DNA from: SAR324 cluster bacterium
GTDB lineage: Bacteria > SAR324 > NAC60-12
DNA: 64,000 nucleotides
NCBI GenBank assembly: GCA_015232315.1
Contig: JADFZZ010000009.1
Span: 1 to 64,000, forward strand
Direction of reading: 5' to 3'
Shown: positions 14,328-48,591 of the stretch, in pieces
Position numbering within the stretch: position 1 is the first letter of the stretch
Layout: every line of letters starts with the position of its first letter
Translations under genes and position numbers: made by a program
Notes under the pieces: model-generated
Database searches by the model: none
What the model saw: only the letters and a program-made list of their open reading frames with translations
Told to the model about the DNA's origin: nothing

Positions 14328-14505
14328 GCTTTAAACTCAAAACAGGTTATTAAAAGGAATTGTTGATATTTCAGGTTTGCACTCTTGAAAAAACGGGTTC
14401 AACTTATCGGGTTGCCTGAACTTGACAAGGAAAAATTTTAATAATGAACGTTCACTTCTGAAGTTTAGTCTTTCCATCCGAAATCTTTATTCTGAGGAAA
14501 CCATC

Positions 14506-46456: not shown

Positions 46457-46477
46457 AGATGTTGTCATCTTTGATTT
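46457..46477 (+). terminator. Short hairpin with U-tract after trmL
   Basis: AGATG and CATCT enclose a TTGT loop, then TTGATTTTTTT. The stem is only 5 bp, but position and T-run fit a weak intrinsic terminator for the aspS-ddl-trmL run. It overlaps the stop codon of the convergent gene at 46465. Confidence 0.45.
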
Positions 46478-47088
46478 TTTTGTCCCAAAACAGCTTGTAC
46501 CAGCTTGACCAAGGACTCATAAGGCTGAGCGCCAACGATTCCATAAGGCTCCGCGACAAAGGCCGGAACTCCAGTCACACCGATCTCTCGGGAACGGAGC
46601 CAATCTGAGTCGATTGCGTCCTTAAACCTGCGGTTGATCAGGACATCGCGTGCGTTTTCAATCGGCAAACCGATCTCTTCCGCCAGTTGAAGCAGTACAT
46701 TGATGTCCCCAATGTTTTGTCCGCCAACAAAACAGGCTTGATAGAGTGAGGTGTGAAGGCGCTCTCCATTGGGTTGACCTTCCGCCCATTTTGCAAGTTC
46801 TTGAGCCAATCGAGTGTTGAAGGTCCTGGACGGGGAATTGTAAGGCAGTCCCTCCTGTTCCATGAGCAATTTCAAATGTGATCTCATGGGTGAGTTTTCA
46901 AAATCGCTCCCTGGAAATAAATCGTTCAATGCTATTCCTTCTGCCGGAATTTCTGGATGGAGAGGGAAAAAACGCCATTGTATTGTGACAGGGTAATTGG
47001 TTTTTAGTTTTTCAATACGCCCGGTACTGAGATAACACCAGGGTCATATAAAGTCGGTAAAAACTTCAAGAGTCATTGTTTCAGACAT
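46465..47088 (-). CDS. Selenocysteine-containing DsbA/FrnE-family thiol oxidoreductase
   Basis: The ATG at 47088 has AAAGGA five bases upstream. Translation gives MSETMTLEVFTDFI, then TGA at 47046-47044, then PWCYLSTGRIEKL and on to the stop at 46465: 207 residues if TGA is read. FrnE-type DsbA proteins have DF-x-CPWC at this point, so the TGA replaces exactly the first catalytic cysteine and predicts UPWC (Sec15, Cys18). A hairpin of SECIS form follows (47012-47030). The rest of the fold is intact, including the cis-Pro region VTGVPAF near residue 173. The frame starting at 46929 is only the downstream part. A nonsense mutation is the alternative; the precise position and hairpin make it unlikely. 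Role: dithiol-disulfide chemistry, substrate unknown. Confidence 0.85.
47012..47030 (-). promoter_or_regulatory. Bacterial SECIS-like hairpin
   Basis: In the message, TCAGTAC pairs with GTATTGA (7 bp, one G-U) around the 5-nt loop CGGGC. The loop begins 21 nt after the UGA and has G as its second base. Known bacterial SECIS elements need a loop about 16-37 nt after UGA with a G in the first two positions. An alternative hairpin closer to the UGA (CCC-GGTG with TACC-GGG) is mutually exclusive and too near. Confidence 0.75.
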
Positions 47089-47181
47089 AAATTCCTTTCG
47101 AAAAAATTTGGGGCATCTTTCAGAAATTGTGAAAAGTAGTTATCAGTTTGAATGTGTCATCCCGAAAAAGCAAGGGCCACG

Positions 47182-48591
47182 ATGGATCTTAACGCATGGT
47201 GTGTAAGCGTGCTCCTTAAAGCACCTCTGGTGCCCTTCCACAGTTCGTTGGAAAACCACCGGAGGTGGGCTAAGAAGGATTCCCCACCAGAGGTAGAGAA
47301 CCAGAAAAAATGGTTAAAGATTTATGGTCGGGTACTTACAAATCATTATTCCATACCCGGGATTTATCCTGTAATCCCTCTGTTGTTCCTCATGGGGGGA
47401 ATCATGATTTTATTCTATCAGGCTGGAACCCGGGACGAGATCAGCCCCAAAGAGAATCAACCTGCCAATCAATGGCGCTTGTCTTACTGGGAAACCCCCA
47501 TTCCATTGCAGGATAAACCTCCAGAAAATTTTCAATTACTGGCTCAGGGAATTCAACCCGAAGATTGTGCCAAATGTCATCCTGCCCAGTTTGAAGAATG
47601 GTCGGCCTCCCTTCATAGTCAGGCGATGAGTCCGGGGTTGCTTGGACAATACGAGGTTTACGACGCCGTTGAAAAAGCCCGATGCGACATCTGTCACGCT
47701 CCCATGAGTGAACAATGGGAACAGTTGCCCACCTCAGACGGGAACTGGCAGACTAACAACCAGTTTGACCGGGATCTGAAATCGCATGGGGTGACCTGTG
47801 CGGCCTGTCATTTGAGAAATCACCAGCGTCATGGACCACCACTCAGACCAGACAGAGAATCCCTGTCTGAAGCCTTGCATGGTGCGCCTTTCCGCACACC
47901 TTTTTTTGAAACTTCGGAATTTTGCCGGGGATGTCATCAACATGAAGCCAACACCTTCAAACCGGGAGGAAAAACTGTAGAAAACACCTACATGGAGTGG
48001 CTGGAGAGTCCGGCTTATGCGAGCGGAAAAACGTGTCAATCCTGTCACATGCCCGATCGCAAACACCTGTGGAAGGGAATCCATGACAAGGACATGACAG
48101 CCTCCGGGGTCGCTATCCGTTATTCTGTCAGCAGTGATACTCCTCAACACGGAGAATTGTTCAACGCCACATTAACCCTGGAAAACACAGGAACCGGACA
48201 TTATTTCCCCACATATTCCACTCCGGCTGTGTTTATGAAAGCGGCCTTTCTGGATGAAACAGGCAACGTGGCTGGAGATGAATATTATGCGGAAAAAATT
48301 CTGCAACGACGTCTGGATGTGTCCAGCACCTCATGGAATGAAATCTTTGACACACGACTGGCTCCTGAAAAATCAGTCAGCCTTAAATTTGAAAAAAGGA
48401 TTCCTCCCACGGCTCAAAGCTTCAAATTATGGGTCCGGGTGGAACCTGACCATTATTATGAGCAGTTTTATCGTGAGGCACTGATAAACAACAGCGAACA
48501 TACCGGTTCTCTGTTGTTTAAAAATGCCTTGGAAACAACCCTTCAGCGCCAATATACCCTCTTTTCAAAAACATGGACTATCTCCAGGTAG
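47182..48591 (+). CDS. Membrane-anchored pentahaem cytochrome c
   Basis: The product is 469 residues from the ATG at 47182 (AAGGG upstream); an earlier frame start at 47152 lacks support. A membrane anchor lies near residues 62-82, then five CxxCH haem sites follow: CAKCH, CDICH, CAACH, CRGCH and CQSCH. Additional His residues could serve as distal ligands. The haem domain resembles cytochrome c554-like multihaem proteins, and the last 150 residues form a beta-rich domain (ATLTLENTGTGHYFP). It probably carries electrons in the periplasm. The first 50 residues are encoded by a palindromic segment (47223-47294), so the true start is uncertain. It diverges from the selenoprotein gene. Confidence 0.8.
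   Translation: MDLNAWCVSVLLKAPLVPFHSSLENHRRWAKKDSPPEVENQKKWLKIYGRVLTNHYSIPGIYPVIPLLFLMGGIMILFYQAGTRDEISPKENQPANQWRLSYWETPIPLQDKPPENFQLLAQGIQPEDCAKCHPAQFEEWSASLHSQAMSPGLLGQYEVYDAVEKARCDICHAPMSEQWEQLPTSDGNWQTNNQFDRDLKSHGVTCAACHLRNHQRHGPPLRPDRESLSEALHGAPFRTPFFETSEFCRGCHQHEANTFKPGGKTVENTYMEWLESPAYASGKTCQSCHMPDRKHLWKGIHDKDMTASGVAIRYSVSSDTPQHGELFNATLTLENTGTGHYFPTYSTPAVFMKAAFLDETGNVAGDEYYAEKILQRRLDVSSTSWNEIFDTRLAPEKSVSLKFEKRIPPTAQSFKLWVRVEPDHYYEQFYREALINNSEHTGSLLFKNALETTLQRQYTLFSKTWTISR
47223..47294. repeat. Inverted repeat in the 5' part of the cytochrome gene
   Basis: ACCTCTGGTG at 47223-47232 recurs inverted as CACCAGAGGT at 47285-47294, with a related CCACCGGAGGTGG near the centre (47256-47268). 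The repeats lie in sequence translated as the cytochrome's N-terminal tail, which has poor protein character. A small repetitive element may have been captured into the reading frame. Confidence 0.5.

Follow-up and report, generated by a model that had tools for sequence, protein, structure and literature searches.

A predicted selenoprotein of the DsbA/FrnE family, with a UPWC active site, in a SAR324 cluster bacterium

Comparative sequence analysis indicates that an in-frame TGA in a gene of a SAR324 cluster bacterium almost certainly encodes selenocysteine (Sec) at the active site of a redox enzyme of the DsbA/FrnE type. The gene lies at positions 46465–47088 of the minus strand of the window, that is, the whole stretch of 64,000 nucleotides analysed (contig JADFZZ010000009.1, positions 1 to 64,000). 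The best explanation, held with very high confidence, is a cytosolic thioredoxin-fold thiol-disulfide oxidoreductase in which Sec would be the attacking residue, and which would be made by SECIS-dependent decoding of UGA. This explanation is based on the reading frame, the decoding machinery, conservation of the TGA column, covariation in the hairpin and a predicted fold of high confidence, from which we infer insertion of Sec in the cell.

The Gene and Its Reading Frame

The frame runs on the minus strand from an ATG at 47088–47086 to a terminal TGA at 46467–46465, and comprises 208 codons and 207 residues with one interruption, itself a TGA. A Shine-Dalgarno-like sequence (AAAGGAA; 47092–47098, minus strand) ends 3 nt upstream of the ATG. 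The interrupting TGA (47044–47046, minus strand) stands where a CPWC motif would have its first Cys; the translation begins MSETMTLEVFTDFI-U-PWCYLSTGR..., with U15 preceded by TDFI. Its identification as the Sec codon draws on the reading of this codon in homologues, and that of the gene as a DsbA/FrnE-like selenoprotein (Sec15, UPWC) on the sequence, the Pfam DSBA match and the fold match. The frame, the start codon, the Shine-Dalgarno sequence and the position of the TGA had all been proposed in a first-pass annotation, and each is borne out by the sequence and its translation. The late start foreseen there for gene callers is also found: the standard list of open reading frames offers only a TTG start at 46929 (46465–46929), and the active site is thus missing from the annotation. 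The consequence is a general one, as standard gene callers truncate the selenoprotein gene, with loss of the active site from the annotation, in many metagenome-assembled genomes (MAGs) of SAR324 and other groups.

The Sec Codon in Homologues

The codon at the Cys column was read in 107 homologues from four pooled searches, the window gene included. It is TGA in 75, TGC in 22 and TGT in 10, with no other codons; in the 32 non-TGA homologues, residue 15 is therefore always Cys. This is the pattern expected of a bacterial selenoprotein, in which the in-frame UGA is aligned with the Cys of homologues. Within the window's phylum, all 25 matches carry TGA in this column. Conservation extends along the entire window protein, before and after the TGA alike, with about 46–57% identity to TGA relatives. 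TGA is universal among the sampled relatives that reach about 40% identity, and below that level both TGA and Cys are found. On plasmids, only relatives below 60% identity were found (about 32% for the best among the matches listed), and viral contigs gave one distant relative.

The same alignment bears on two other readings of the gene. In the first, the short N-terminal frame serves as a leader, translation restarts at TTG 46929, and the product has no active site. This is the frame that a gene caller would report, but upstream of 46929 every aligned relative shows protein-level conservation of both the N-terminal strand and xPWC, and residue 15 is Cys wherever the codon is not TGA; restart is accordingly very improbable. 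In the second, the gene is an ordinary CPWC gene spoiled by a nonsense mutation or a sequencing error. A single codon is indeed all that separates it from a normal gene, but dozens of independent genomes have TGA at the same codon and an otherwise conserved frame. Sequencing error is ruled out for this reason, and a pseudogene is even less probable than restart. The first-pass annotation had itself named a read error and TGAs outside the Cys column of relatives as the dangers to its prediction; neither has materialised, the TGA being exactly in the column.

The SECIS Hairpin

Downstream of the TGA, positions 47012–47030 (minus strand) contain a hairpin that is assigned as a bacterial SECIS (bSECIS) element by its pairing, its covariation in TGA rows and the published model. 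The 5′ arm TCAGTAC (47030–47024) and the 3′ arm GTATTGA (47018–47012) enclose the loop CGGGC (47023–47019). All seven pairs are formed, one of them G-U. The spacing from UGA to loop is 20 nt, so that the loop begins at nucleotide 21, with G at its second position; the first-pass annotation had described the hairpin in precisely these terms. In the published model, bacterial SECIS elements have a loop of 3–9 nt, a stem of 4–16 bp and a G in the first two loop positions, 16–37 nt from the UGA; the model includes an N1-GG-N-N2 loop, in which N1 and N2 are able to pair (PMC13188914). The window hairpin, with a loop of 5 nt, a stem of 7 bp, G at loop position 2 and a distance of 20 nt, falls within these limits and also matches the N1-GG-N-N2 form.

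When the window strand is folded by itself, the energy minimum is a different hairpin (z = −1.06), and the case for the SECIS therefore rests on comparison rather than on single-sequence energy. This alternative hairpin was rejected, its covariation on the alignment being no better than that of shuffles (75/500 reach its score). Rfam, at its gathering thresholds, gave no matches in the window.

Among 28 distinct TGA sequences, 92.9% of the pair cells are formed, as against at most 44% for slid versions of the hairpin. In the same set, both sides of the pair have changed in 25 cells, a number that none of 500 shuffles reaches. Such counts are inflated by the relatedness of the rows, but the Cys relatives show nothing at the same offset. 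RNAalifold, unaided, returns this hairpin without its fourth pair. Across 73 distinct TGA rows, 92.6% of the pairs are formed, compared with 50.7% in 31 Cys rows; pairing in the TGA rows falls to 17–54% when an arm is slid by 1–6 bases, and is 81.8% when whole 3′ arms are shuffled among rows, with the observed value reached in 0 of 1000 shuffles. The compensatory changes replace T-A by C-G, for instance at pair 5, A-T by G-C, and C-G by either T-A or G-C, and some are coupled to amino-acid changes (Ser/Ile to Val/Val). The loop has G at position 1 or 2 in 72 of the 73 TGA rows. About 40% of TGA rows leave one of the seven pairs unformed, usually the fourth (a T.T mismatch).

The Decoding Machinery

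The first-pass annotation had suggested looking for selA, selB, selC and selD, and had regarded a lack of selB and selC as fatal to its prediction. All four genes, as expected for a bacterial selenoprotein, are present in the window's genome: selB (387 bits), selA (495 bits), selD (363 bits) and a tRNA-Sec (selC) with anticodon TCA. The selD gene (L071; G000:C28:50700-51623, minus strand) has a TGA of its own in KTCG-U-AAK (the CGUAAK motif), and is thus a second predicted selenoprotein gene in this genome.

More widely, of 52 genomes in the phylum 48 have selB, including all 15 of good quality. It is present in 24 of the 25 phylum genomes that carry the DsbA-like selenoprotein gene; the exception, G001, is 73% complete. 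Among five more gene-carrying MAGs (L015, L016, L018–L020), four have selB. Two SAR324 single-cell genomes have been listed as having selD only (PMC5029168); with selB found in most of the phylum, this may be explained by incomplete genomes.

Genome-wide reassignment of UGA to Trp, Gly or Cys would also leave the frame open through the TGA, with no need for a SECIS, but has next to no probability: the selenoprotein gene and many relatives end in TGA, so that UGA still means stop in the host, there is a full sel machinery with a UCA-anticodon tRNA-Sec, and the covarying hairpin just downstream of the UGA is absent from Cys relatives.

In the preferred reading, Sec insertion, SelB and Sec-tRNA(Sec) would be held at UGA 47046–47044 by the short CGGGC-loop hairpin 20 nt downstream, and the ribosome would then decode this UGA as Sec. 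The final UGA of the gene, which is in no such hairpin context, would lead to termination.

Fold and Predicted Function

The protein matches Pfam DSBA (PF01323) with E=1.2e-31, and the closest solved sequence is that of Deinococcus radiodurans FrnE (E=4e-25). A structure predicted from an alignment of 18 sequences, with Sec replaced by Cys, has a pLDDT of 91.8 and a pTM of 0.89. Its best fold matches in Foldseek are FrnE (TM 0.87) and SCO1869 (TM 0.88); YjbH, HCCA isomerase, DsbM and kappa GST match less well. Among the columns without variation are D12, residue 15, P16, W17, C18, Y19 and, in the TGVP loop, the Pro; TGVP-A-F is aligned at the cis-Pro position of the window protein. The characteristics of the FrnE subfamily (cd03024), namely an inserted helical domain, CP(W/F)C and a cis-Pro loop, are thus all found, with Sec for the first Cys. 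A further subfamily feature, a C-terminal CX4C, occurs in many members, not all, and has been linked to active-site regeneration in D. radiodurans FrnE (PMC8945050). It is absent from the last 60 residues of all 73 Sec proteins (each of at least 190 residues); recycling would therefore have to use an external reductant.

No signal peptide is visible in the window protein, which suggests that the enzyme is probably cytosolic. Sec15, in U15-P-W-C18, would attack a substrate disulfide or an oxidised thiol, and Cys18 would resolve the resulting selenylsulfide. The predicted oxidoreductase probably works as a reductase or isomerase. One weak Cys relative (27%) is encoded elsewhere in the genome.

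A search of gene neighbours in 19 relatives found no partner in common with the window's neighbours, and context therefore gives no substrate. The divergent gene at 47152–48591 (plus strand) encodes a multihaem cytochrome c-like protein with an MtrC/MtrF domain and CxxCH motifs; its adjacency to the selenoprotein gene is not conserved in relatives. A search of the window for further frames broken by a TGA gave numerous frames attributable to chance. Long stems accompany two plus-strand frames, at 14386 and 24298, but in neither is the TGA flanked by a CxxC or any other redox motif.

Evolution of Sec and Cys Forms

A tree computed with U coded as C, from 73 Sec rows and 32 Cys rows, requires four changes of state, whose direction is not proved by the midpoint root. 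Most Sec rows form one UPWC group. Two Cys sequences with CPFC (L126 and L127) are nested inside this group on a long branch (support 95/98) and form 4–5 of the 7 hairpin pairs; they are likely revertants from Sec to Cys that have also lost the SECIS. In a separate group, with UPFC, U and C members occur together; the TGA-carrying L133, L136, L138 and L069 belong to it. In L069, from a genome of the window's order (G006), the TGA is present and the hairpin is absent at the usual offset.

UPWC carriers are labelled as SAR324, Myxococcota/Deltaproteobacteria, Planctomycetota, Acidobacteriota and Rhodospirillaceae, some of these labels being derived from MAGs, in which mis-binned contigs are possible. 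The balance tips slightly towards the UPWC proteins being one old Sec-dependent FrnE branch, not named by any curated NCBIfam model, in which Sec would be the standing state and rare Cys members (L126, L127) would be later, hairpin-losing reversions; the UPFC branch would have gained Sec separately. A family with TGA and Cys forms on one tree, and with the hairpin present or absent to match, is a natural test of the joint gain and loss of Sec and SECIS.

Relation to Known Selenoproteins

Sec-containing DsbA-like proteins are known from metagenomic surveys, as the first-pass annotation had noted. A 2005 report on the Sargasso Sea described nine DsbA-like UxxC selenoproteins (COG2761), with a downstream bSECIS shown for one sequence (PMC1088965); others were reported in complete genomes in 2006, and 63 ‘DsbA 1’ selenoproteins in the GOS set in 2008 (PMC2398784). 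A 2026 review lists ‘DsbA-like protein form 1’, PF01323 (PMC13188914). The suggestion of an under-annotated group stands in so far as no curated NCBIfam model scores above cut-off against the window protein, and falls in so far as the group has been described as ‘DsbA-like’ since 2005. Within the literature searched, no paper linking SAR324 to a DsbA-like selenoprotein was found.

Among solved structures, D. radiodurans FrnE (5cnw, 5co3) shares with the window protein its fold, 30% identity, a CPWC-type motif near the N-terminus and the lack of a visible signal peptide; the window protein differs in having Sec for the first Cys and no C-terminal CX4C. SCO1869 of Streptomyces coelicolor (3gl5) has a similar fold, with 27% identity over the aligned part. 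The published DsbA-like UxxC selenoproteins, which come from marine bacteria, have in common with the window protein the PF01323 domain and an N-terminal UxxC with Sec first, here UPWC; domain, motif and COG suggest that the Sargasso and GOS sequences belong to the same subfamily. The window gene is a further member of these known proteins, to which the present analysis adds the assignment to SAR324 and the covariation count.
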